NCBI RefSeq assembly: GCF_011039205.1
Contig: NZ_JAAKEL010000004.1
Coordinates: 124,001-188,000 of the forward strand
Direction of reading: 5' to 3'
DNA length: 64,000 nucleotides
Origin: Dysgonomonas sp. ZJ279
GTDB lineage: Bacteria; Bacteroidota; Bacteroidia; Bacteroidales; Dysgonomonadaceae
The notes under the pieces were generated by a model. It was not told the origin of the DNA, did no database searches, and worked only from the letters and a program-made list of their open reading frames with translations. The translations under genes were made by a program, and so were the position numbers. Of this stretch, positions 19,767 to 32,919 are shown piece by piece. The number at the start of each line of letters is the position of its first letter. The first letter of the stretch is position 1.

Positions 19767-20588
19767 CTACTTGGTCGGAGAATATCCAAATTGTTTTTTG
19801 AATGCTGATGAAAAATGAGAGAGGTTCTTAAACCCGACTTCGAGATATACATCGGACACTTTTTTATTCTCATTGCGAATTTTATCATAAGCAATTTCCA
19901 ATCTTTTTTCCATGAGCCATTTCTGAGGAGAGGATTCGCTTATCTTTTTGAAATCCCTCTTGAATGTGGCAAGGCTCCGACCGGTGAAGTGTGCAATGTC
20001 TTCAATAGATAGATCATACATGTAGTTATCTCCCATAAAATCAAGTATGTCTATTTTCCATGGTTCAGTGAAATCAAAGAGAACAGGATAAAACATTTGA
20101 TTTATATTTAATAAGGAATATACACCTTCATGTAATTTCAACTTCATAAGTTCGTCAGCTGGCTCTATTGATGAATCGAAATAAGGCGTCATAGACTGAA
20201 ACAGGCTTGTGATATCGGGTGTTTGTGGCAACTTCACTACGCTTGATAATTCCTTATGAGGCTCTATCTTCGGTTGTTTTTTATCAATTGTCTGATAAAA
20301 TTCACGTAAAAAATTGCGTTTAAAGATCATAAAAATACCTTTGAACTGTTCTCCATTTTCAGCTTGTTTTATTAAATCTACCCGGTTATCTCTACGCAAG
20401 AAAACACATTCTCCTGCTTCGATTACTGTTTTCTTTTTCTTTTGTTCAACAAGTAGTTCCCCAGAATAGATATATACAAGCATGTGGTTTTTAACCATTG
20501 ATGTGCATGTTCTGTTATCATTGAAGTAATAACTGAAGAAGATATCGGAATAACTAAATGTCAATGATTCGTTGCGTCCAAAATCCAT
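19767..20588 (-). CDS. AraC-family transcriptional regulator
   Basis: 273 residues. The N-terminal cupin-like half contains KKKTVIEAGECVFLRRD. The C-terminal double helix-turn-helix includes IEDIAHFTGRSLATFKRDF and VYLEVGFKNLSHFSSAFKKQ. It is encoded directly upstream of, and on the same strand as, the aldo/keto reductase, ABM and alcohol dehydrogenase genes. This resembles the YqhC-YqhD/DkgA aldehyde-response layout of E. coli, so it is the likely activator of that set. It could also act on the divergent SusC gene, but the shared operator described elsewhere points to another AraC protein for that. Confidence 0.9.
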   Translation of the reverse strand: MDFGRNESLTFSYSDIFFSYYFNDNRTCTSMVKNHMLVYIYSGELLVEQKKKKTVIEAGECVFLRRDNRVDLIKQAENGEQFKGIFMIFKRNFLREFYQTIDKKQPKIEPHKELSSVVKLPQTPDITSLFQSMTPYFDSSIEPADELMKLKLHEGVYSLLNINQMFYPVLFDFTEPWKIDILDFMGDNYMYDLSIEDIAHFTGRSLATFKRDFKKISESSPQKWLMEKRLEIAYDKIRNENKKVSDVYLEVGFKNLSHFSSAFKKQFGYSPTK

Positions 20589-20911
20589 AACATATCTTTT
20601 TTACAAATATAGTATTTTGTTTGTCGAGTCACTATATTTGAAATGGAAAAAGAAATCCGATCTAATGAGATTATATTTCTCATAATGGTGGGGTTTAGGG
20701 TAATTTATTTCAATACATTAAACACAATTTAACACATATTATCATTGAAGGCAGATGCTTTTTAAAGCAACTATACTCATCCTTTTCATTAAAATGCTTT
20801 TAATACCTAAATCAGCAATAATAATCCATTTTTTAAACAGTTTTTATCCATTTCAGTTAGATTTAATATCCCCTAAATTCGTCATGTTAACCTAATCTAA
20901 AACTGACTATT
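20589..20911. promoter_or_regulatory. Divergent intergenic region upstream of the first SusC gene
   Basis: 323 bp with no gene. Minus strand: an exact -7 element TATATTTG at 20611-20604 for the AraC gene, about 16 bp from its ATG. Plus strand: another exact TATATTTG at 20633-20640, without a fitting -33 and about 270 bp from susC. Nearer susC are the bipartite operator (20814-20853) and a TAAATTCG -7-like box (20874-20881), which are the better promoter candidates. Confidence 0.5.
20814..20881 (+). promoter_or_regulatory. Predicted AraC operator plus -7-like element of the SusC operon
   Basis: AGCAATAATAATCCATT (20814-20830), 13 bp, then TTATCCATTT (20844-20853). The inner half-sites TAATCCATTT and TTATCCATTT start 22 bp apart, two helical turns, typical of AraC-type direct repeats. 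TAAATTCG (20874-20881, 7 of 8 to TAnnTTTG) follows after 20 bp, so the second half-site occupies the -33 position. An almost identical element occurs at 27446-27485. Confidence 0.65.
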
Positions 20912-23900
20912 ATGAAAACTTTTTTATTTAAAAAGCTCACTGTCTTTATAGTGATGTTTTCCCTATCAGCTACAGTTTTTGCTCAAACTAACTCTCCAAA
21001 TCAGGATGCTGATAAAGTGTCCGGAAATGTGATAGATGTTGAGGGAAACCCGTTGATAGGCGTAAGTGTTGTAGTAAAAAACACTCGAATTGGTACCATA
21101 TCTGATGATAATGGTAAGTATCAAATCAATACAAAAGAAGGAGATGTACTGGTATTCTCTTATATTGGATTTGTCACTAGGGAAATAACCGTTCAGAAAA
21201 ACAAAGTTGTAAATGTTACATTGCAAGATTCCAGCAGAACTTTAGATGAAGTTGTTGTGACGGCCTTAGGTATCAAAAGAGAGAAGAAAGCTTTAGGGTA
21301 TGCTGTGCAGGATATCAAAGGAGATGTGCTGACAGAGGTGCGGGATCCTAACATGCTTAATTCCTTAGCCGGACAAATAGCCGGAGTTCAGATCACAAAT
21401 GTATCGTCGGGAGGTATTGGTGGATCACCGAGAATATCTATTAGAGGTGAAACTTCACTGACTAATAATAGCCCTCTTTTTGTTGTGGATGGGATACCCA
21501 TTAATAACAATCCTAGCAACTTCAATACTGATGGAATGGATTTTGGTGGTGGAGCCGGTGATATTAATCCGGATGATGTAGAATCAATAAGTGTATTGAA
21601 AGGACCTACAGCTGCAGCTTTGTATGGAAGTCGTGCTGCAAATGGTGCTGTAGTAATTACAACAAAGAGTGGAAAGAAAAGTAAGGGTATGGGTATTACT
21701 TACAATACAAATTTGATTATCCAACCATGGTTGTTGAGAACACCTGATTATCAGTACAAATACGGAGGAGGAGAAAACTTTGAGTATGAATATGTAGATG
21801 GGAAAGGAGGAGGGAAAAATGATGGCGCAGGTTATTCGTGGGGGCCCAAGTTAAATCAGCCGGATCCAACTACAGCCAGTGGTTTTGTAGAGATACCACA
21901 ATATGCAAGTCCTATTGATCCGGTTACCGGAAAACGTATTGCTACGCCTTGGGTCGCTCATCCGAATTTCCTCGAAGATTTTTTTGATACGGGAACTGTA
22001 TTTACCAACAATGTATCTATAAGCAATGGTAATGAACATGGAGACTATAGACTCTCTTATACGAATATGAATCAGAAAGGAATTATCCCAAACACAGACC
22101 TGAAGCGTAATACTGTTTCTCTTAATGCAGGCTATAAGCTAACTAAATTTTTACGTGTAAATGCCAATGTAAACTATGTGCAGAATAAAAGCGATAATAT
22201 GCCACAGATTAATTATTGGGATAAACCCATAATGTATAGCTTCACGTGGTGGGGAATGAATGAAGATGTGAAAGCTTTAAAAAATTATTGGGCTCCCAAT
22301 AGGGAAGGATTGGAACAATCTAACTTTAATAATTCATGGATGGACAATCCTTATTTCACATTATATGAAAATACCCAATCTCAATTGAAAAATCACCTTT
22401 ACGGCAACCTGTCTTTCAATCTTGATATTATAGATGGGCTTTCGCTTATGGGACGAACAGGTACAGACTGGTACGATGACAATATTCGCATCAAACGTGC
22501 TTATAGTTCTAGAAACTATCCAAATGGGATGTATACGGTGAATAACTTTATTTTTGAGGAACGCAACTCTGATTTTTTGCTTTCTTGGGATAAACCTCTC
22601 CGATCCGATTTCCAATATAAAGTATCCTTAGGTGGTAATAGAATGCACCGTTCTATACGAAAAACCAGTTCAAGAGCTTCAGAGTTAGAAATACCCGGGG
22701 TTTATAACCTCGAAAATGCAAGATCGGCTCCTGTTGTCAGGGAAGAAAACACGGAGAAAGCAGTTAACAGTATCTATGGAATGGGGCAACTCATGTACAA
22801 AAATATGTTGTATCTTGATATTACAGCCCGTAACGACTGGTCTAGTACTTTGCCTGTTGATAATAACTCTTATTTTTATCCTTCAGTATCGATGAGTGCT
22901 TTGATCTCTGAAATGGTTAAATTACCAAAATCCATTTCTTTTTTCAAAGTGCGTGGATCATGGGCTCAGGTCGGTAACGATACAGATCCGTATCAGCTAA
23001 TTCCTGTATACCAGTTTGCTGATAAATGGGGAAGTACGAGTGCTGCCCGTGAAGATGGCGCATTATATAATAGTGAACTGAAACCTGAAAAAATTAACAG
23101 TGCTGAGGTTGGCTTAGATATTCGCTTTTTAGGCGATAGGTTGGGGGTGGATTTTTCATATTATAATACCGTTGCAACCAATCAGATATTATCAATGGCT
23201 GTTGCACCGACATCGGGTTACACTTCAAGAATGACAAATGCGGGCAAAATAGAAAGCCGTGGATTTGAAGTGGTATTAAATGCAGTACCTCTAAAATTGA
23301 AAGATTTTGAATGGGGGGTAATACTAAATTGGTCTACTAATCGTGCTTATGTTCGTGAGTTGGCAGAAGGAATAACTAACTATAATATGTCAGGCTACGC
23401 TCAGGCACGTGTAGGCGGACGTATGGGGGACTTGTATGGTTGGGGATTCAAACATACTCCGGACGGACAAATTATTCACAGAAGCGGTCTACCTGTGTGG
23501 GAAGACGAAGTGAAATGTTATGGCAACTATAATCCGGATTGGATGGCCGGCTTGAAAAATACATTTATATACAAAAACTTTAAATTATCGGCATTGCTTG
23601 ATTATAGAAAAGGCGGCCGTATATACTCGGGTACCTTAGCAAAAGGTATGGAAGGTGGAGTATTGGCAGAGTCAGCCATAGGAAACCAACGAGAAGAAGG
23701 TCTGATCGGTGAGGGTGTAATGGAAATTACCGATGGAGACGGAAATGTTACAGGATATGAAAAGAATGATGTAAATGTCAGCTTACGTGATTGGATCGGA
23801 CGCTACCATAGTCGTGATTCTTTCGAAACAAACAGCTATGATGCTTCTTATCTGAAACTACGTGAGATAGCTTTTCTTTATACTTTTCCACAGATAAAAA

Positions 23901-24070
23901 TATCTGAAAATTATTCATTACGTAATGTTTCGGTAGGAGTAACAGGACGAAACTTATGGATGTGGTCGAAGGCTAAACATATAGATCCCGAGTCGGGAGG
24001 TTATGGAAACGAAGATGCTCAAATACCTACACCTAAAAGTATTGGGTTTAACTTAAGCGTTTCTTTCTGA
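20912..24070 (+). CDS. SusC/RagA-family TonB-dependent outer-membrane transporter
   Basis: 1052 residues. The Sec signal peptide ends at VFA-QT. A carboxypeptidase-like beta-sandwich follows (VSGNVIDVEGNPLIGVSVVV), then the TonB-box region LDEVVVTALG, a plug domain (IRGETSLTNNSPLFVVDGIP; AALYGSRAANGAVVITTK) and a large C-terminal beta-barrel ending in NLSVSF. SusC proteins import oligosaccharides or other large nutrients across the outer membrane with TonB energy, capped by a SusD lipoprotein. The partner gene starts 31 bp downstream. Control is probably by the AraC regulator at 26506-27414 through the shared operator. Confidence 0.97.
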   Translation: MKTFLFKKLTVFIVMFSLSATVFAQTNSPNQDADKVSGNVIDVEGNPLIGVSVVVKNTRIGTISDDNGKYQINTKEGDVLVFSYIGFVTREITVQKNKVVNVTLQDSSRTLDEVVVTALGIKREKKALGYAVQDIKGDVLTEVRDPNMLNSLAGQIAGVQITNVSSGGIGGSPRISIRGETSLTNNSPLFVVDGIPINNNPSNFNTDGMDFGGGAGDINPDDVESISVLKGPTAAALYGSRAANGAVVITTKSGKKSKGMGITYNTNLIIQPWLLRTPDYQYKYGGGENFEYEYVDGKGGGKNDGAGYSWGPKLNQPDPTTASGFVEIPQYASPIDPVTGKRIATPWVAHPNFLEDFFDTGTVFTNNVSISNGNEHGDYRLSYTNMNQKGIIPNTDLKRNTVSLNAGYKLTKFLRVNANVNYVQNKSDNMPQINYWDKPIMYSFTWWGMNEDVKALKNYWAPNREGLEQSNFNNSWMDNPYFTLYENTQSQLKNHLYGNLSFNLDIIDGLSLMGRTGTDWYDDNIRIKRAYSSRNYPNGMYTVNNFIFEERNSDFLLSWDKPLRSDFQYKVSLGGNRMHRSIRKTSSRASELEIPGVYNLENARSAPVVREENTEKAVNSIYGMGQLMYKNMLYLDITARNDWSSTLPVDNNSYFYPSVSMSALISEMVKLPKSISFFKVRGSWAQVGNDTDPYQLIPVYQFADKWGSTSAAREDGALYNSELKPEKINSAEVGLDIRFLGDRLGVDFSYYNTVATNQILSMAVAPTSGYTSRMTNAGKIESRGFEVVLNAVPLKLKDFEWGVILNWSTNRAYVRELAEGITNYNMSGYAQARVGGRMGDLYGWGFKHTPDGQIIHRSGLPVWEDEVKCYGNYNPDWMAGLKNTFIYKNFKLSALLDYRKGGRIYSGTLAKGMEGGVLAESAIGNQREEGLIGEGVMEITDGDGNVTGYEKNDVNVSLRDWIGRYHSRDSFETNSYDASYLKLREIAFLYTFPQIKISENYSLRNVSVGVTGRNLWMWSKAKHIDPESGGYGNEDAQIPTPKSIGFNLSVSF

Positions 24071-24100: not shown

Positions 24101-25525
24101 ATGAAAAAATATATATTTATATTCGCTTTGATATTGTTATCGTCCTCTTCTTGTACCAAAGACTTTGAGGATACGAATACCAATAAAAACAAACCTGAAA
24201 CAATTGTGCCTAATCTACTCTTACCCTATCTTACTTATTCAGTAGTAGATGCCGGAGTAGGAGGTAGTGTAGTTACCCAACATCTGGCAGCTCGTGACTG
24301 GGTTGTTTCTCTCGGACGATACGACTGGTATAGTACTCCTTACTGGGATTATTCGATATTGCGCAATGCCAACAATCTTATATTGGAGGCCGAAAATGTA
24401 GGTAATGATAATTTTAAAGGTATAGGGCTTATTTTTAAATGTTATTTGTTTGCCAGAACTACCGATTGCGTAGGCGACATTCCTTTTAGTGATGCCCTCA
24501 AAGGTAAAGAAGGGGTGTATATGGCAACTTACGACAAACAAGAAGATGTTTATGTTGGTCTATTGGCATTTTTGGAGCAAGCAAATGATTTATTGGATGT
24601 TGATGGAGTGCCTATTTCGGGAGATATTCTTTATAACGGAGATATATTGAAATGGAAAAAATTTGCAAATTCTCTTCATTTACGTTTATTAATGAGAGTT
24701 TCCGATAAAATGCCCGATGCAAAAACTAAAATAAAAACAATTGTCGATAATCCTGCTAAATATCCCATTTTTGAAAGTAACGATGATATGGCAGCTCTCA
24801 CTTACCTGCCAGATTCACCTAATCGTTTCCCAAGTTATAATGCACCTGGATTCGACGCCGGAGAAGTTGTTTTAGGCAAAGCTCTCGCTGATACTCTTTT
24901 GACTTACAAAGATCCTCGTATTAATGCAATGGCTCAGCCAACATTGTCATCTGTAAATAGCGGTACTCCCGAATTTGTGGGTGTGCCATGTGCAATGAGT
25001 AAAGAAGATGCTGTGTCATATAATGGAGGACGTGAAAATCAATCGCTCATAAACAAGCGATATAGCCACGATCCTGTTGGTGAAAAAGGTATTTACATGT
25101 CTTATGCAGAGCTACAGTTTATACTAGCAGAGGCAGCACAGAAAAACTGGATAAGCGGTAGTGCTAAAGCCTATTATGAAAATGGAATACGGGGATCATT
25201 CGAATATTACGGACTATCAGCTAAAGTAGACGAATATCTGATAGGAGAAAATGTTGTTTTCAAACCAAGTAAAGGTTTATTGCAGATTGCTGTTCAAAAA
25301 TGGATATCATTCTATTTCAATACAGGTTATGAGGTCTTTTTCGATATTCGTCGTACCGGTATGCCTTATCTTTACCCCGGGACAGGTAATCTGAATGGAG
25401 GGAAAATACCTGTACGCTGGAAATATCCCGATACAGAACAAAATTATAACGGAAATAACTATAAACAAGCTATAAGCCTGCAAGGAGAAGATAATACAAA
25501 CACGCCTATTTGGCTGACTAAGTAA
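24101..25525 (+). CDS. SusD/RagB-family nutrient-binding outer-membrane lipoprotein
   Basis: 474 residues with a lipoprotein signal (SSSSC, Cys18). The early TNKNKPE stretch and the overall length match the SusD-like nutrient-binding subfamily (PF12771 type). SusD proteins form the lid over the SusC barrel and bind ligand through TPR-like helices. The gene follows susC at 31 bp and is followed by a strong terminator, so susC-susD is a two-gene core transcript. The ligand is unknown. Confidence 0.95.
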   Translation: MKKYIFIFALILLSSSSCTKDFEDTNTNKNKPETIVPNLLLPYLTYSVVDAGVGGSVVTQHLAARDWVVSLGRYDWYSTPYWDYSILRNANNLILEAENVGNDNFKGIGLIFKCYLFARTTDCVGDIPFSDALKGKEGVYMATYDKQEDVYVGLLAFLEQANDLLDVDGVPISGDILYNGDILKWKKFANSLHLRLLMRVSDKMPDAKTKIKTIVDNPAKYPIFESNDDMAALTYLPDSPNRFPSYNAPGFDAGEVVLGKALADTLLTYKDPRINAMAQPTLSSVNSGTPEFVGVPCAMSKEDAVSYNGGRENQSLINKRYSHDPVGEKGIYMSYAELQFILAEAAQKNWISGSAKAYYENGIRGSFEYYGLSAKVDEYLIGENVVFKPSKGLLQIAVQKWISFYFNTGYEVFFDIRRTGMPYLYPGTGNLNGGKIPVRWKYPDTEQNYNGNNYKQAISLQGEDNTNTPIWLTK

Positions 25526-25598: not shown

Positions 25599-26519
25599 AT
25601 GTATACTATTTTAAAATACCTATTAGGTATATTTATTGCAATCACAATTTGTTCATGTAACAAAAAGCAGGATATCACCACAATTCAGCTAAAAGTGATG
25701 AGTTTTAATATATGGGTTGGAGGAGGAAAATCCATTGGATCTACAGGTGAAGTTTTCGCCAAAAGTGGGGCTGATATAATTGGAGTACAAGAGTCTACTC
25801 GTGATGGCAAAAATATTGCAGTACACCTTGCCGGTAGTCTTGGATGGCACTCATATGCATATTCTGAAAGCCAAACTATTATCAGCAAATATCCGATAAT
25901 TGACACTTCTGCCAACAAGCATGGTGTGAAAATCCAGATTGATAATAATCATTTTGTATGGATGTTTAATGTTCATCTGATGTATTGCCCTTACGAACCA
26001 TATCAGTTAAATAGAATAGAGTATTGCGGCGGTCCTATACTCAATACTCCCGAAGAAGCTATTAGTTCAGCTTTGGCCACCAGAGAGGCCGATGTTAATT
26101 CTAATATAGCTGATATACTAGAAGTTCGTAAAGAAGGTTACCCCATTTTTCTTACCGGCGATTTTAACGAACCTTCTTGTCTAGACTGGACTGCCAGAGC
26201 AGTAGAAGCCAGATTATGTAAGATTCCTGTTCAATGGCCATCGACAAAAGCGTTTATTGATAAAGGCGGAATGACAGATTCGTACAGATTCTTTTATCCC
26301 GATGAAGTTAAGAATCCGGGACATACATGGACTCCATTGCCGGAAAGTCAGGCATATAAAGAAGTTTTAGATCGTATCGACTTTGTTTTCTTTTCGGGAA
26401 ATGGGTTTGAACTTTCAAATACCCAAATAGTAGGGGAGTCTAGCTCAAAAAGTGATATTATGTTTGATAATTATCCTTCGGATCACAGAGCTGTACTTAG
26501 TACTTTCACTCTCCGGTAA
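25599..26519 (+). CDS. Endonuclease/exonuclease/phosphatase-fold lipoprotein
   Basis: 306 residues with a lipobox ending ITICSC (Cys20), so it is membrane-anchored outside the cytoplasm. The EEP fold is shown by VMSFNIWVGG, GVQES, the active-site GDFNEPS and the C-terminal SDHRAV, with Asp, Asn, Glu and His in their usual positions. The superfamily includes DNases, inositol-phosphate phosphatases and sphingomyelinases. Export and a SusC/SusD neighbour favour a phosphodiester or phosphomonoester on a nutrient over DNA. It lies behind a strong terminator, and its end overlaps the convergent AraC gene by 14 bp. Confidence 0.87.
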   Translation: MYTILKYLLGIFIAITICSCNKKQDITTIQLKVMSFNIWVGGGKSIGSTGEVFAKSGADIIGVQESTRDGKNIAVHLAGSLGWHSYAYSESQTIISKYPIIDTSANKHGVKIQIDNNHFVWMFNVHLMYCPYEPYQLNRIEYCGGPILNTPEEAISSALATREADVNSNIADILEVRKEGYPIFLTGDFNEPSCLDWTARAVEARLCKIPVQWPSTKAFIDKGGMTDSYRFFYPDEVKNPGHTWTPLPESQAYKEVLDRIDFVFFSGNGFELSNTQIVGESSSKSDIMFDNYPSDHRAVLSTFTLR

Positions 26520-27414
26520 ACTTATCGGAAAGCTTATTTAATACCCTATATCTTGCGGGAGAAATACCCATTGTCTTTTTGAATAACCGGGAGTAATAAT
26601 ATGGGTCTTCAAAGCCAACCCGCATAGATATTTGGTTAACTTTCATTGTGCTACTTAGTAAATGGTAACAAGATCGCTGAATTTTGAGTTGATTGAAATA
26701 TTCCATTGGCGGTATTCCCATATTTTTATAAAATAGCCTGTAAAAATAAGATGTAGAATACCCGAAATAGTTTGCTATATCGGGTAATTTTAGTTTGTTT
26801 CCGATATTTTCATTCATATAATGCGTTGCAAGATGAATTAATGAAGTTCCATATTTGTCTTCAGATTTTGAACTTCTATGAGTCTTAACATATAATAGCG
26901 AACCTAAAAAATAAGAAAGTCCAAAATTTGCATATTGCAGTGCATTATTATCATGCGATACTGATAATACATTGTATATTTCTTCAAATAGTTTCAAGCG
27001 TTCATCAATCCGTGAATTATTCTCCGGATCAATAGAAATTATTTTTCCGAATTCATTTTTAAATAAATCAGATTTGTATCCTTTGAAATGTATCCAAAAG
27101 ATTGTCCATGGGTCAGAATTATTGGCTCCGTAACGATGTGCAATACATGCAGGTAATATTATGTATTGGTTTTCTTTTACCCCATGAACTTTTCCATTAA
27201 ATTCGAACCAACCGCTTCCTTTTGTGCAGTAAATAAGAATATTTTCAGGACTGCCGGACGGGCGACTAATGTAATGATATTTTGCACTTGGGAAATAACC
27301 CAAAGAATGGAAATATAAATCATTCATCATGGAATTTTTATCCATTTCTTCTACAATGAAAAATGGAAGTATAATACTCCATTGTCCATGAAATCCATGT
27401 TTAATCTGTGTCAT
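26506..27414 (-). CDS. AraC-family transcriptional regulator, predicted controller of the flanking catabolic genes
   Basis: 302 residues. The N-terminal sensory cupin includes KENQYIILPACIAHRY. The C-terminal double helix-turn-helix includes IANYFGYSTSYFYRLF and ISMRVGFEDPYYYSRLFKKT. The gene is divergent from the Gfo/Idh operon (120 bp gap), and its 3' end overlaps the EEP gene by 14 bp. The bipartite element at 27446-27485 starts 31 bp upstream of its ATG and recurs before susC at 20912. I infer that this protein activates both operons and may regulate itself. Confidence 0.92.
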   Translation of the reverse strand: MTQIKHGFHGQWSIILPFFIVEEMDKNSMMNDLYFHSLGYFPSAKYHYISRPSGSPENILIYCTKGSGWFEFNGKVHGVKENQYIILPACIAHRYGANNSDPWTIFWIHFKGYKSDLFKNEFGKIISIDPENNSRIDERLKLFEEIYNVLSVSHDNNALQYANFGLSYFLGSLLYVKTHRSSKSEDKYGTSLIHLATHYMNENIGNKLKLPDIANYFGYSTSYFYRLFYKNMGIPPMEYFNQLKIQRSCYHLLSSTMKVNQISMRVGFEDPYYYSRLFKKTMGISPARYRVLNKLSDKFTGE

Positions 27415-27445
27415 TTAGGTTTAGCATTTTAATTGTAATAAAATT

Positions 27446-27512
27446 AGCAATAATAATCCATTGCTTGGGCAAGATTTATCTATTTTTTCATCATGGCTAT
27501 TACGTAAATTTG
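27446..27512 (+). promoter_or_regulatory. Predicted AraC operator plus -7 element of the Gfo/Idh operon
   Basis: AGCAATAATAATCCATT (27446-27462), 13 bp, then TTATCTATTT (27476-27485), followed after 19 bp by TAAATTTG (27505-27512), an exact TAnnTTTG. The first half is identical to 20814-20830, the second matches in 9 of 10 bases, and the inner spacing is the same. The predicted leader is about 18 nt. Confidence 0.7.
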
Positions 27513-27534
27513 TTTATTAACTAATTAATAAGAT

Positions 27535-28725
27535 ATGAACCGAAAACAGTTTATTCAACGCTTAGGAACAATAGGAGTCGCAGTAATTGCATCACCTATA
27601 ATCGGAACCTCTTCTTTAGAAGCTTCACTATCTTCGCCGGCTTTTGGTGCTACGAATAATAAAAAGACTCGTGTAGGTATCATTGGCTGTGGAAGTGTAT
27701 CGGGTATGTATTTACCTCATTTGTCAAAATGCCCTTATGCCGAAGTAGTAAGTGTCTGTGATATATTACCTGATAGGGCAAAAAATGCTGCACAAAAATA
27801 TGGTGTAAAGAATTGGTATCCCCATATTGATAAGATGCTGGCCGGAGTTCCATTCGATTTATTAGTGAATCTTACCAATATGCAAGAGCACGGAAGGTTG
27901 AACCGTCAGGCATTAATGGCTAAAATAAATGTATGGAGTGAGAAACCTATGGCAAATACTTATGCCGAAGGGCGTGAATTATATAATCTTGCCAACAGTC
28001 AGGGAGTTCGTATATGGGGTGCTCCTGCGGTTGTAAATAGTCCGCAATTCGCATTTATGGCTAAGCAAATAAATGAAGGAAATCTAGGTCGTATTGCGGC
28101 TGCACATGCTCATTACGGACATCAAGGACCCAATTGGTCTGCGTTTTTCTTCGAAGAAGGAGGTGGCAGTTTACCAGATTTAGGTGTCTATAATATCTCT
28201 ACCCTGACAGGACTATTTGGACCTGCAAAATCGATTATAGCAATGACAAATATTGTAGACCCGACTAGAAACACAGGAGATAAAGGTCATATACAAGTGG
28301 TTGCGGAAGACAATGCAATGGTGATAATGGAACATCAAAATAATGTGCTATCCCATATTCAGTGTGGATTCAACTATTTCGATCCCTATGGACATGAGGG
28401 TACAGGTCAGGAACGACCAACTATCTCCGTTACAGGCTCAACAGGAAATATGCATATGATAGGATATGATTGGAAACCATCGGGTGTGGATATGGCTACA
28501 GTCGCAAACGAGAAAACACAGCGATTTGCGACCGATCAGGGTACTTTTCTTTGGGAAGAGGGTGCCTCCATTATCTGTGAATATCTGGCAACAGGCAAAG
28601 AAACCCTTATTAATCCTGAGCATGCTTTGCACGTTCTGGAGATTATTGAAGCAGCACGCCAGTCTCAGGCGCAAGGCAAAAGAATTAATTTACAATCCTC
28701 TTTTAAATGGCCGGTAATAGGGTGA
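27535..28725 (+). CDS. Exported Gfo/Idh/MocA-family oxidoreductase
   Basis: 396 residues. The N-terminus MNRKQFIQRLGTIGVAVIAS is a Tat-like signal (R-K in place of R-R) with a hydrophobic core and cleavage near FGA, so periplasmic action is likely. The Rossmann motif is VGIIGCGSVSGMYL and the sugar-dehydrogenase signature is SEKPMANT. A C-terminal alpha/beta domain follows. Relatives oxidise or reduce sugar hydroxyls with tightly bound NAD(P). It is the first gene of the operon that also encodes a second Gfo/Idh protein, DUF1080, NagB and ROK, and is predicted to be AraC-activated. Confidence 0.9.
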   Translation: MNRKQFIQRLGTIGVAVIASPIIGTSSLEASLSSPAFGATNNKKTRVGIIGCGSVSGMYLPHLSKCPYAEVVSVCDILPDRAKNAAQKYGVKNWYPHIDKMLAGVPFDLLVNLTNMQEHGRLNRQALMAKINVWSEKPMANTYAEGRELYNLANSQGVRIWGAPAVVNSPQFAFMAKQINEGNLGRIAAAHAHYGHQGPNWSAFFFEEGGGSLPDLGVYNISTLTGLFGPAKSIIAMTNIVDPTRNTGDKGHIQVVAEDNAMVIMEHQNNVLSHIQCGFNYFDPYGHEGTGQERPTISVTGSTGNMHMIGYDWKPSGVDMATVANEKTQRFATDQGTFLWEEGASIICEYLATGKETLINPEHALHVLEIIEAARQSQAQGKRINLQSSFKWPVIG

Positions 28726-28895
28726 TCAAATGAGATGAATTTCGATTTTATGATCAAGGATTAAACTATGTATTCGTATTTTATTCCTTCATTTAAGATA
28801 AGCTAAATAATAAACTTTCACAAAATATTGGTTATTCCGGCATTTAAATTAAATTTAATCAATCAATTATATTGTTAACTTGTAAAAAATTATTA

Positions 28896-30440
28896 ATGAA
28901 AGAAATAAATGAAAAACAAAACCTAAAAGCGGCAGAAATGTCTCGCAGGAAGTTTCTTAGTGTTGCGGCCACTGGAGTTGCAGGCTTAACTATTCTTCCG
29001 AGTTTTACTGTCTCAGGATTAGGACACATGGCTCCGAGCGATAAACTATACATTGCCAAATTGGGATGTGGAGGTATGGGCGCAGCCGATCTCGAGTGTT
29101 TGGTAAATACACCGAGAAAGAATGCGGTAATAGCCTATCTCTGCGATGTTGATGGACGCATGGCTGCCGGTGCGCAAAAGAAATTCCCTAAAGCTCCTCT
29201 CTATGAAGACTGGCGCGAATTGTATGAAAAGGAGCATAAGAATTTTGATGCTGTATGTATTTCTACACCGGATCATAATCATGCTATTCAGGCATTTGGA
29301 GCAATGCGGATGGGGAAACATGTTTATCTGCAAAAGCCATTGTCGCACGATATTTATGAGGCACGTATATTGACCGATGCCGCAAAAAAATATAAGGTTG
29401 TTACTCAAATGGGAGATCAGGGTAATTCGTGCGATGGAATGAAAACTATGCGCGAATGGCTCGATGCAGATTTGATAGGTGATATACAAAAAGTTTATTG
29501 TTGGACAAATCGTCCTGTATGGCCTCAGGGAATCCCATGGCCTACCGCAAAAGCTTCTGTGCCAAAAGAATTGAATTGGGATTTATGGCTCGGTACAGCT
29601 CGGCATGTCGACTATATTGAAAATCTGATCCCTTTTAACTGGCGTGGCTGGTGGGAATTCGGTACAGGTGCCCTAGGTGATATGGGATGTCATATTATCG
29701 GACCTCCGTTCAAATTACTCGGTCTGGGATATCCAAGTGAGGTTAGTTGCAGTGTAACCAATCAGTTTACTGATATTTTTAAAGAAGCCTATTATCCGGA
29801 AAGTGCTCCGGTAGCAAGTTCTATTCGCTTTAAGTTTAAACAGCAAAACGGTAAGAATCTCGATTTATATTGGATGGACGGAGGTATTATGCCCGAACGT
29901 TTCGACGAAATAGATCCTAATGCAGATATGACTACTGCAATGGGAGACCTAGATCCCCTTGATGTTGAAGGAGCGACAGTGTTTGTAGGAACTAAAGGTA
30001 AGATATCTTGCGGTTGGGGTGGATCTGATCCCCGATTATGGGTAAATGATGGTAGTAAAAAACCACTTTTTGCTAAAGATGTAAACCTTCCTCAGAAATA
30101 TGAGAGGATAGAAGGCGGTACTAATGGACATTACTGGGCTTGGATCGATTCGTGTATTACCGGCTATGATAAAGCGAAAGTCGAATCACCATTCGAAGGT
30201 TATGCAGGGCCACTAACAGAAGCGGTACTGATGGGTAATCTGATTCTCAGAAGTTATAATATTCGCGAAGAAGTGAAACGTAATGATTCGGTTTATGGCG
30301 AAATGGAAGCTTTTCTTTATCCCGGTCGTAATATCACATATCAATGGGATGGAGCAAATATGAGAATTACCAATTTCGAAGCTGCTAATCAATTTGTGAA
30401 AAGAGAATACCGTAAAGGTTGGGAAGAATTAAAATTGTAA
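28896..30440 (+). CDS. Tat-exported Gfo/Idh/MocA-family oxidoreductase
   Basis: 514 residues from the ATG at 28896. An in-frame TTG at 28872 would add eight residues before the signal and is less likely. The Tat signal SRRKFLSVAATGVAGLTILP is clear. The dinucleotide motif KLGCGGMGAAD and the catalytic-type QKPLSHD (the EKP position) follow. It is the longer Gfo/Idh type often paired with a shorter one and with DUF1080 in Bacteroidetes. Probable role: oxidation of a glycoside hydroxyl (3-keto formation) or the reverse step on the released sugar in the periplasm. It lies 170 bp after the first Gfo/Idh gene. Confidence 0.9.
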   Translation: MKEINEKQNLKAAEMSRRKFLSVAATGVAGLTILPSFTVSGLGHMAPSDKLYIAKLGCGGMGAADLECLVNTPRKNAVIAYLCDVDGRMAAGAQKKFPKAPLYEDWRELYEKEHKNFDAVCISTPDHNHAIQAFGAMRMGKHVYLQKPLSHDIYEARILTDAAKKYKVVTQMGDQGNSCDGMKTMREWLDADLIGDIQKVYCWTNRPVWPQGIPWPTAKASVPKELNWDLWLGTARHVDYIENLIPFNWRGWWEFGTGALGDMGCHIIGPPFKLLGLGYPSEVSCSVTNQFTDIFKEAYYPESAPVASSIRFKFKQQNGKNLDLYWMDGGIMPERFDEIDPNADMTTAMGDLDPLDVEGATVFVGTKGKISCGWGGSDPRLWVNDGSKKPLFAKDVNLPQKYERIEGGTNGHYWAWIDSCITGYDKAKVESPFEGYAGPLTEAVLMGNLILRSYNIREEVKRNDSVYGEMEAFLYPGRNITYQWDGANMRITNFEAANQFVKREYRKGWEELKL

Positions 30441-30460
30441 ATAACTTATAAAACAAAAAT

Positions 30461-31258
30461 ATGAAAATAAAATATTGTGGCATTCTCATTGTACTGGCAA
30501 CACTATTAGTTGTTTCATGCACACCAAAAGAAAGTAGTCAGGAACTTGTTGTAAAAGACTCTGATTGTGCTGAAGAAGCTATACCCGAAGGTGGAGAATG
30601 GATAACCATGTTTGATGGAAAGACACTTGACGGATGGCGTGGCTATTGCCGTAAAGATGTACCCGATGGATGGGTTGTAGAAGATGGCTTTATAACTTTT
30701 AAAGGAAGTGGAAACACAATCGATCCTGAAGGTGGTGATCTAATGTATGACAAACAATTCGAAAATTTCGTATTTGAAGTGGAATGGAAAATAGATAAAG
30801 CTGGAAATAGCGGTATTTTTTATACAGCACAAGAAATTGAAGGGAAACCTATTTACTACTCAAGTCCCGAATACCAATTGCTTGATAACGAAAATATGCC
30901 CGATGCTTGGGAAGGCGTTGGTGGAAATCGTCAGGCAGGAGCTGTATATGATATGATTCCTCCTGTTCCACAACCAGTAAAACCTTATGGAAACTGGAAT
31001 AAGACCAAAATTGTTTTGTATAAAGGACATGTTTATCACTATATGAATGATACTCTTATTCTGGATTTTAAATTCGGTACACCTGTTTGGAAAGCATTAG
31101 TCGATAAAAGTAAGTTCAGTAAATTCAGTAAAGATCCTGAAAGCTGTGTTGATGCTTATGAACTAATGTTAGACTGTGGCAAAAAACCGGGCTATATCGG
31201 ATTTCAGGATCACGGATATGGCGTTTGCTTCCGTAATATTCGCATAAAAGAACTCTAA
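30461..31258 (+). CDS. DUF1080 (3-keto-disaccharide hydrolase-like) lipoprotein
   Basis: 265 residues. The lipobox LLVVSC gives Cys20. The DUF1080 jelly-roll starts with WITMFDGKTLDGWRGY and continues through DKQFENFVFEVEWKI, NSGIFY, EYQLLDNE and the C-terminal GYIGFQDHGYGVCFRNIRIK. Members of this family cleave glycosides after oxidation to the 3-keto form, probably by elimination/hydration. It sits 20 bp after the second Gfo/Idh oxidoreductase and 4 bp before the NagB-type gene, so the oxidise-then-cleave sequence is encoded together. Confidence 0.9.
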   Translation: MKIKYCGILIVLATLLVVSCTPKESSQELVVKDSDCAEEAIPEGGEWITMFDGKTLDGWRGYCRKDVPDGWVVEDGFITFKGSGNTIDPEGGDLMYDKQFENFVFEVEWKIDKAGNSGIFYTAQEIEGKPIYYSSPEYQLLDNENMPDAWEGVGGNRQAGAVYDMIPPVPQPVKPYGNWNKTKIVLYKGHVYHYMNDTLILDFKFGTPVWKALVDKSKFSKFSKDPESCVDAYELMLDCGKKPGYIGFQDHGYGVCFRNIRIKEL

Positions 31259-31262
31259 CTTA

Positions 31263-31985
31263 ATGAAAATAGAATTGTGCGACTCTTATGATCAATTGAG
31301 TCGTAAGGCTAATGATATTATTATTGGAAATCTGTTGCAGCACAAAACAATAAAGATTTGTGCTGCAACAGGCAATTCTCCAACACGAATGTATGAGATG
31401 CTAAGTAAGGAGTATTCAAATCGTCCGGAATTATTTTCTCAAATCCAAGTAATTAAACTGGATGAATGGGGAGGATTGCCACAGAGCCATTCGGGGACAT
31501 GTGAGACTTATTTGCAAGAATATGTTATTAAACCATTGAAGATAACTGAAGATCGCTATGTTTCATTTCAAAGTGATGCTTTACACCCGGAAAAAGAATA
31601 TAAAAGAGTTCAATCGGAGTTAGAGAAGAGAGGGCCGATTGATATTTGCATTTTAGGATTGGGCATGAATGGTCATATAGCATTTAATGAACCTGCTGAT
31701 TCTTTGCAGCCTAATTGTCATATTGCAGCCCTTTCACCTCAATCGCTTCAACATTCTATGGTAGCAGGAGAGGATAGTAAACCTCAATATGGACTTACAT
31801 TGGGCATGGCTGATATAATGCAGTCTAAATTGATAATTCTTCTTATAAATGGTGTGAATAAACGCGAAATCACGCGATCTTTTCTATCTAAAAAAATAAC
31901 AACTGGTTTACCGGCTTCTCTTTTATGGCTTCATCCTAATGTTATTTGTCTTTTGGATAAAGAAGCAGCTGGAGATTTAAAATAA
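31263..31985 (+). CDS. NagB/glucosamine-6-phosphate deaminase-family protein
   Basis: 240 residues, cytoplasmic. NagB-type features: ICAATGNSPTRMYEML in the phosphate-binding region, LDEWGGLP (DE as in NagB) and the signature GLGMNGHIAFNEP with His138. NagB converts glucosamine-6-phosphate to fructose-6-phosphate and ammonia; AgaI-like relatives act on galactosamine-6-phosphate. The divergent GNSPTR loop and the ETYLQEYV segment leave the epimer open. It lies 4 bp after DUF1080 and 7 bp before a ROK kinase, which could supply the phosphorylated amino sugar. Confidence 0.85.
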   Translation: MKIELCDSYDQLSRKANDIIIGNLLQHKTIKICAATGNSPTRMYEMLSKEYSNRPELFSQIQVIKLDEWGGLPQSHSGTCETYLQEYVIKPLKITEDRYVSFQSDALHPEKEYKRVQSELEKRGPIDICILGLGMNGHIAFNEPADSLQPNCHIAALSPQSLQHSMVAGEDSKPQYGLTLGMADIMQSKLIILLINGVNKREITRSFLSKKITTGLPASLLWLHPNVICLLDKEAAGDLK

Positions 31986-31992
31986 TAATACT

Positions 31993-32919
31993 ATGAAACA
32001 CGCTATAGCGATAGATATTGGTGGTACTAATATAAAATATGCTCTTGTAGATAATGATGGGAATATATTATATGAATCCTTCAGATCTGCTAAATCGAAT
32101 GATAATATGACTAGTCTTATAGATCTTCTTAAAGCGATTGTTACTGAAATTCGGGTTGTCGCATCTTCTTCTAATTTTTCAATTATAGGGATTGGTATCG
32201 GTGTCCCTTCGGTTATTGATGATGGCGTTGTACTATTTGCAAATAATTTACCTGAGCTGGATAATCAGAATCTACGAAAAATAATAGCTACTTATAGTGG
32301 CTTATCAGTATTTGTCGATAACGATGCTAATCTGATGGGGTTAGGCGAAGTGGTCTATGGTGGAGCCAAAGGAATATCTGATGCTGTTTTTCTAACCATA
32401 GGAACAGGTATTGGCGGAGCTTTGATTTTGAATGGGCAACTTTATGGAGGATACAGAAACCGTGGTACAGAACTAGGTCATATCATCGTCAATTGCGATG
32501 GAAATCCTTGCTCGTGCGGAGCAAGAGGATGCTTCGAAGCACACGCTGCTGTAATTGTCCTTATCGAAGAATATAAAAAGTTGCTAATAGATGACATCCA
32601 GACGGATGTAGAAATAGATGGCAAATATATTGTATCCCGATATGAAGCAAACGAAGAGGCAGCCATTATTGCAATGAATAATCATTTCTATTATATAGCG
32701 ATGGGTGTTGTTAGCCTGATAAATGTTTTTGCACCGCAGAAAATAATAATAGGAGGGGGGATATCAGAGTCCGGCGATTTCTATATAGACAATATTCAAA
32801 AACTGGTAAAAGAACTGGTTATGAAAGAAACTTCTTGTTTTACTACAATAGAACGGGCTTCGTTAGGAAACAAAGCGGGATTTCTAGGTTCGGCAGCGCT
32901 AGTGTTTAAACATATGTGA
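31993..32919 (+). CDS. ROK-family sugar kinase
   Basis: 308 residues with no DNA-binding domain. N-terminal ATP motif AIDIGGTNIKYAL; zinc-binding CSCGARGC (Cys173, Cys175, Cys180); GTGIGGALI loop. ROK kinases phosphorylate glucose, N-acetylglucosamine, N-acetylmannosamine and similar sugars. It is the last gene of the Gfo/Idh operon, next to the NagB-type deaminase, so an amino sugar is the best guess for the substrate. The convergent D15 gene ends 47 bp away, and I saw no clear terminator hairpin between them. Confidence 0.9.
   Translation: MKHAIAIDIGGTNIKYALVDNDGNILYESFRSAKSNDNMTSLIDLLKAIVTEIRVVASSSNFSIIGIGIGVPSVIDDGVVLFANNLPELDNQNLRKIIATYSGLSVFVDNDANLMGLGEVVYGGAKGISDAVFLTIGTGIGGALILNGQLYGGYRNRGTELGHIIVNCDGNPCSCGARGCFEAHAAVIVLIEEYKKLLIDDIQTDVEIDGKYIVSRYEANEEAAIIAMNNHFYYIAMGVVSLINVFAPQKIIIGGGISESGDFYIDNIQKLVKELVMKETSCFTTIERASLGNKAGFLGSAALVFKHM

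Follow-up and report, generated by a model that had tools for sequence, protein, structure and literature searches.

The closest described counterparts of the sites analysed here come from Escherichia coli and Bacteroides. The E. coli AraC operator is a direct repeat of two ~17-bp half-sites that overlaps the -35 element and lies beside a divergent araC gene, and the I1 string in the primer table of the same source reads TAGCATTTTTATCCATA (PMC2893085, excerpts). For Bacteroides AraC-type HTCS, comparative genomics has predicted tandem direct repeats, on average 21 bp, before susC/susD and catabolic genes (Ravcheev 2013, excerpts of PMC3878776), while RhaR of Bacteroides thetaiotaomicron is an AraC-family positive regulator with tandem-repeat motifs (Patel 2008, as cited in excerpts of PMC3870299). 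The same species needs its BT2158 to grow on trehalose, leucrose and palatinose (PMC11300592, excerpts). Neither a repeat spacing nor a start site for Bacteroides regulators was found in the excerpts of PMC11253607 and PMC5061871 consulted, and a literature search returned no paper on AraC-family promoter control in Dysgonomonas.

In the window, i.e., the whole 64,000-nucleotide stretch of Dysgonomonas sp. ZJ279 DNA under analysis, sites of this kind precede susC and the oxidoreductase gene gfo1, and a further one lies on contig C1 of the same genome. The three are probably operators of one local regulon, which a dimer of the AraC-family protein encoded at 26506-27414 would activate via the tandem half-sites. 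The sites have a common geometry, are conserved, co-occur with the regulator and stand before genes of a coherent pathway; binding, an inducer, positive control and autoregulation are what we infer. The features concerned are the following:

20814..20830, + strand: distal half-site (repeat 1) of the susC operator, 13/18 bases equal to the proximal one at 22 bp
20836..20853, + strand: proximal half-site (repeat 2) of the susC operator, last 4 bases ATTT on the -33 position
20874..20881, + strand: -7-like box TAAATTCG of the susC promoter, differing from TANNTTTG at one base and starting 60 bases after the site start
20912..24070, + strand: susC (SusC/RagA TonB-linked receptor; TIGR04056, 673 bits), predicted target
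24101..25525, + strand: susD-like lipoprotein (PF12771), predicted target
25599..26519, + strand: endonuclease/exonuclease/phosphatase-family protein (PF03372), predicted target
26506..27414, - strand: AraC-family regulator with a cupin-type ligand domain and two HTHs (PF02311, PF12833/PF00165), proposed activator
27439..27446, - strand: -7-like TAATTTTA facing araC and abutting the operator, putative function
27446..27462, + strand: distal half-site of the gfo1 operator, within the araC-gfo1 intergenic region
27468..27485, + strand: proximal half-site of the gfo1 operator, the same as the distal one at 12/18 bases after a 22-bp shift
27505..27512, + strand: -7 box TAAATTTG of the gfo1 promoter, offset 59 from the site start
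27535..28725, + strand: gfo1, Gfo/Idh/MocA oxidoreductase (PF01408, PF22725), predicted target
28872..32919, + strand: gfo2, 3-keto-disaccharide hydrolase, galactosamine-6-phosphate isomerase and ROK kinase, which may share the gfo1 transcript

An earlier note on this DNA had described a 40-bp bipartite pattern in front of both operons, and its positions, 13-bp gap and second part are confirmed. The 17 bases AGCAATAATAATCCATT are found at both 20814-20830 and 27446-27462 and are followed, after 13 bp, by TTATCCATTT (susC) or TTATCTATTT (gfo1), equal at 9/10 bases; the 17+13+10 pattern thereby spans 20814-20853 and 27446-27485, with 26 of its 27 fixed bases identical. By itself, the repeated 17-mer is unremarkable in this AT-rich window, which contains 12 identical 17-mer pairs as compared with a mean of 4.65 and a maximum of 16 in simulations. 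A pair joined to a second part of at least 9/10 equal bases occurs once in the window, and in none of 40 windows simulated under a fourth-order Markov model.

The 40-mer is better read as two full direct-repeat half-sites of ~18 bp, 22 bp apart, in which GCAA-like and ATCYATT-like blocks recur after 22 bp. The AraC-like 22-bp repeat noticed earlier in the inner half-sites is thus borne out, and it extends over the full ~18-bp units in all ten main sites: between 11 and 14 of 18 bases are equal at the 22-bp shift, which is the best among shifts 18-26 in each, and 0.5% of shuffled 40-mers attain 11/18 there. Over all 14 sites compared, which are non-independent as they comprise orthologues, paralogous copies and the near-identical pairs G006/G024 and G010/G014, the spacing is 22 bp in 11 and 23 bp in one, and two have a degenerate proximal half. 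Such promoter-oriented direct half-sites ~21 bp apart are the arrangement of an AraC-type tandem operator.

Searching the 4.1-Mb genome for the whole 40-mer, a check proposed with the original observation, yields only three copies at up to 3 mismatches, all ahead of pathway genes, and none for the reversed control pattern. The third copy (C1:3751-3790, minus strand) has a perfect 17-mer together with the second part, and 3' of it lie a 3-keto-disaccharide hydrolase (PF06439) and a BT_2158-like glycoside 3-dehydrogenase, which scores 868 bits against an NCBIfam BT_2158 equivalog cut-off of 750. A profile (R2) whose only training sites were the seven of G021, G006, G024, G014 and G010, hence with the own genome excluded and the own susC site absent though its G021 counterpart was included, returns the same three sites on top over the whole own genome (C1, E = 3.2e-9; gfo1, 9.0e-9; susC, 5.3e-5), the next match being at 0.14. 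Shorter patterns were set aside: the 17-mer alone at up to 3 mismatches gives 52 matches, mostly noise given 33 for the reversed control, and its one-mismatch occurrence at C47:69935 was dropped as having no second half. A half-site-plus-box pattern at up to 1 mismatch gives 8 matches against 7 for the control, the two exact ones being the gfo1 and C1 sites, and no such operator was found at the two inspected (L038, L039) of the six inexact ones.

Among the predicted targets are genes for uptake across the outer membrane (susC, susD), for a phosphodiesterase-like protein and for Gfo/Idh/MocA enzymes. No solved relative of the 25599..26519 protein was found at E<=0.001, and the best solved relatives of gfo1 include DgpA proteins. 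The genes at 28872..32919, of which gfo2 is BT_2158-like but below the cut-off while the galactosamine-6-phosphate isomerase is above its own, may be co-transcribed with gfo1 across a gap of ~150-170 bp. The C1 promoter aligns with window 27326-27530 at 78% identity over 208 bp, including ~89 bp of the start of araC, and appears to be a duplicated promoter with an araC remnant. Orthologues of the C1 hydrolase and dehydrogenase lie directly after gfo1 in G006, G021 and G010, as does the hydrolase orthologue in G014 (to the end of the stretch examined), and the C1 pair therefore looks like part of an ancestral operon, now lying at another place under a separate operator copy. In the window, the dehydrogenase and hydrolase that follow gfo1 (28872-32919) are non-orthologous to the relatives' post-gfo1 pair, whose orthologues sit on C1, and the gfo1 locus seems to have been rearranged. 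A leader of ~350 nt (L032:3404-3750, on C1) separates the third operator from the hydrolase gene and contains a repeat-like stretch, CATCCTGAGGAACGAAGGATCTC, which may be a small mobile element.

Conservation was followed in a family sample of 101 genomes, the own genome being G000. Relatives of the 26506-27414 protein at E <= 1e-60 are present in 25/101, and a regulator at least 49% identical in six: G000, G021 (82%), G006 (74%), G024 (73-74%), G010 (51%) and G014 (49-51%). All six keep the site before gfo1 or a BT_2158-like dehydrogenase, which answers the question of close relatives raised with the original pattern; in G024 the site precedes the dehydrogenase, and gfo1 was not found in the stretch searched. 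At up to 3 mismatches, the pattern occurs in G000 (3), G021 (2), G010 (1) and G028 (1), i.e., in 3/6 close-orthologue genomes and 1/95 others. The G028 match is judged spurious, with no regulator at E<=1e-60 and 0/12 pathway queries in the surrounding 7.9 kb. A local scan located the G006, G024 and G014 sites, each at 4 mismatches, the 95 other genomes being covered by the <=3-mismatch pattern and a profile (R1) trained on ten sites. Three sites are present in G021, one before susC, one next to araC and one before gfo1 (this last with 7 mismatches to the pattern), and a single site is counted in each of G006 and G024, where no susC turned up in the 19 kb examined and a 6-mismatch A/T-rich stretch was not counted.

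Beyond its training sites, the best R1 matches are G066:C110 (6.2e-5), G081:C10 (3.8e-4) and G021:C81 (7.5e-4); at E<=1 the profile matches 101/101 genomes, so weak matches mean little. An R1 scan of 26 of 48 loci of distant relatives (35-46% identity), some with ~1.5 kb on each side, gave nothing convincing (best E 0.079), and among 393 genomes sampled across the order (E <= 1e-80) the nearest non-family regulator has 46% identity. The half-sites are where conservation is highest: in an ungapped comparison of the susC promoters of G000 and G021, the outer parts of the site are 88% and 100% identical, its 13-bp middle 62%, the 60 bases upstream 20-25%, and the stretch between site and -7 box 26%.

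The proposed regulator has the domains of an AraC-type protein, with a C-terminal double HTH (PF12833, 70 bits; PF00165, 72 bits in two stretches; above cut-offs) and an N-terminal cupin-type ligand domain, as in the sugar regulators of this family (PF02311, 44 bits; cut-off 21.1). Its family profile also matches the AraC ligand-domain structures 2arc/2aac, and its DNA-binding part the AraC DNA-binding domain 2k9s; the closest NCBIfam model is E. coli AraC (PRK10572), at 94.3 bits and below the cut-off of 208 for the arabinose-AraC equivalog. The HTH stretches SYFYRLF and DPYY(Y/F)SR(L/I)FKK are kept in six orthologues and altered in five aligned relatives of 40-44% identity. That this protein serves both sites, as the earlier note had supposed, is supported by its co-occurrence with the operator across the family genomes. 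A TAnTTTTA facing araC is found in 4/4 compared genomes in which araC is divergent from the site, and as this -7-like box abuts the operator, the protein may also limit its own synthesis. The window holds a second AraC-family gene, 19767-20588, with an ExsA_N-type N-terminal domain.

Further sites occur in three relatives. G014 has an additional divergent operator-like pair (L081:3923-4192), and G010 one in the same place (L082), before a ROK/NanE-type cluster on one side and a glycyl-radical enzyme gene (gre) with its activase on the other; the genes were read in G014, and in G010 the evidence is a ROK match plus a corresponding beginning of the other gene. These four extra sites lie 60-61 bases before a TAnnTTTG box. 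The G010 ROK site has one extra spacer base, which brings its repeat to 23 and its box to 61, so that the proximal half keeps its distance to the box. The two gre sites have the distal half only, with 5 and 6 of 18 bases equal at the 22-bp shift, and carry TTG at -23; both count against a simple rule that an operator goes with no -33 box. The araC-gfo1 interval of G021 contains a corrinoid methyltransferase cassette of four genes (URO-D, B12-binding, Met_synt_B12 activation domain, URO-D; L078:9107-13042). Each end of it carries an operator and a -7 box, as if the cassette had been inserted along with a control-site copy of its own. The position of the cassette right behind the araC-side operator hints, speculatively, at methylated substrates.

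The known promoter of Bacteroidota consists of TTTG at -33 and TAnnTTTG at -7. A TAnnTTTG-like -7 box follows all 14 sites, at 60 bases from the site start in ten, 59 in three and 61 in one (60 in seven and 59 in three of the main sites), the chance of an offset of 59 or 60 being 1.3% per site. The second half ends 20 (susC) and 19 (gfo1) bases ahead of it, in agreement with the 19-20 bp previously claimed for the two sites. The strict TANNTTTG box is present in 8/10 main sites, the exceptions being two susC promoters (TAAATTCG, TATGTTTA). The operator ends at -21 or -20 from the box in the ten main sites, TTTG peaks at -24 to -21 among local promoters, and TTG in 58 non-operator upstream regions with TANNTTTG has a single-position peak at -23 (12/58), in line with that known promoter. 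The proximal half-site consequently overlaps the -33 element, as in class II arrangements, and the bases on this position are ATTT or ATCT in the 60-base main sites and TATT or CATT in the 59-base ones.

Class II activation appears the likeliest mode, because the end of the operator covers the local TTG position, as the E. coli AraC operator overlaps -35. The original prediction of a class II activator that replaces the -33 contact stands as to position, the proximal half-site lying on -33, but the scarcity of TTG there is statistically soft: 0/10 main sites against 14/58 other local TANNTTTG promoters (p = 0.11), or 2/14 against 14/58 with the extra G010/G014 sites included (p = 0.72). The operator geometry would suit a repressor too, as a protein bound over the -33 position could also exclude polymerase; that the same protein acts at the same sites by blocking RNA polymerase at -33 until relieved by an inducer is nevertheless unlikely, since ten main promoters with no TTG at -33 and imperfect susC -7 boxes are expected for activator-dependent promoters, and AraC-type activators usually have direct repeats directed towards the promoter.

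As to which protein binds, the gene at 19767-20588, divergent from susC, is the regulator gene nearest the susC site, but the gfo1 site adjoins the 26506 regulator, and no 19767-20588 relative was found in 19 kb of G021 (tblastn E<=1e-10; reaching 2.5 kb upstream of the kept susC site), so that it is a most improbable regulator. Binding by an unlinked protein, e.g., the 41%-identical paralogue G000:C55:99589, is only slightly less improbable: paralogues of the same subfamily are present in G000, G021 and G010, yet both HTH stretches differ in the aligned G000 and G021 paralogues, and 19 other family genomes have relatives at E<=1e-60 yet no 40-mer at up to 3 mismatches. Finally, the likeness of the susC and gfo1 sites might be a functionless leftover of a recent promoter duplication, for which the C1 copy, with its ~89-bp araC remnant and 78% identity over 208 bp, offers a precedent; outside the site, however, the susC and gfo1 promoters are 15-53% alike (38% in the 13-bp middle), and in G021 the susC and araC-side sites are conserved separately, which renders this explanation scarcely credible.

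Under activation by the 26506-27414 protein, the two DNA-binding domains of a dimer would lie head-to-tail on the ~18-bp half-sites 22 bp apart, about on the same helix face. As the downstream half-site covers -33, the bound protein could touch sigma factor/RNA polymerase at a TAnnTTTG-like promoter that, in the main sites, is without a TTTG -33 box. A sugar or glycoside in the cupin domain would switch the protein to its activating state, and the genes activated would serve uptake (susC, susD, phosphodiesterase-like protein) and 3-keto-glycoside breakdown (gfo1, 3-keto-disaccharide hydrolase, glycoside 3-dehydrogenase). More tentatively, and with rather less than even probability, a soluble cupin-AraC protein of the Dysgonomonas group may use tandem half-sites like those of E. 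coli araI in place of the Bacteroidota -33 element, with a regulon that unites outer-membrane uptake with the cleavage of 3-keto-glycosides and, in relatives, with processing of the aglycone. The genes behind operator copies that fall under this last heading are the corrinoid methyltransferase cassette of G021 and the glycyl-radical enzyme with activase of G014 (in G010 by sequence); if this aglycone reading were true, the inducer would be a methoxylated or otherwise modified (aryl) glycoside.

Most likely, the control is of an ordinary bacterial type, here described for a further regulator. For a 3-keto-glycoside pathway of bacteria other than Bacteroides, the analysis supplies a regulator, an operator and a set of targets that can be tested, as well as a natural set of promoters with an AraC half-site in the place of the -33 box, which would allow direct study of the contact between an activator and the Bacteroidota housekeeping sigma factor; a literature search found no worked example of such a contact, which is no proof of absence.

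The araI likeness has a limit in spacing. The E. coli AraC consensus is TAGCN7TCCATA, and at up to 1 mismatch it has 7 matches in the window against 5.0 expected, none at either site, so the likeness holds only with one extra base. The repeat is 22 bp here and 21 bp in the I1I2 string of araI, and the core-to-core spacing is one base longer here (PMC2893085, excerpts). In other respects the locus resembles araI1-araI2 as those excerpts describe it, with ~17-bp direct repeats, overlap with the -35 region and a divergent araC gene, and it has a common AGCA...ATCCAT core and a regulator that is likewise of cupin plus double-HTH type, with AraC as its closest NCBIfam model. Unlike E. coli AraC, this regulator misses the equivalog cut-off and has no arabinose genes among its predicted targets, and the promoters are of the Bacteroidota -33/-7 type as opposed to -35/-10. 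Tandem direct repeats upstream of susC/susD and catabolic genes are shared with the HTCS motifs of Bacteroides, likened here by the description in the excerpts consulted; HTCS are membrane sensor kinases, whereas the regulator here is a soluble cupin-AraC protein. With RhaR, likewise compared by description, it shares the role of an AraC-family regulator of a Bacteroidota sugar regulon, RhaR serving the rhamnose pathway, unlike the regulon here. The BT2158 locus of B. thetaiotaomicron is matched by a C1 target that qualifies as a BT_2158 equivalog; its neighbour BT2160 is SusR-like, and SusR-like predicted sites are 67 or 77 bp apart (PMC3878776, excerpts), in contrast to which the regulator of the Dysgonomonas sites would be a soluble protein of the cupin-AraC kind.
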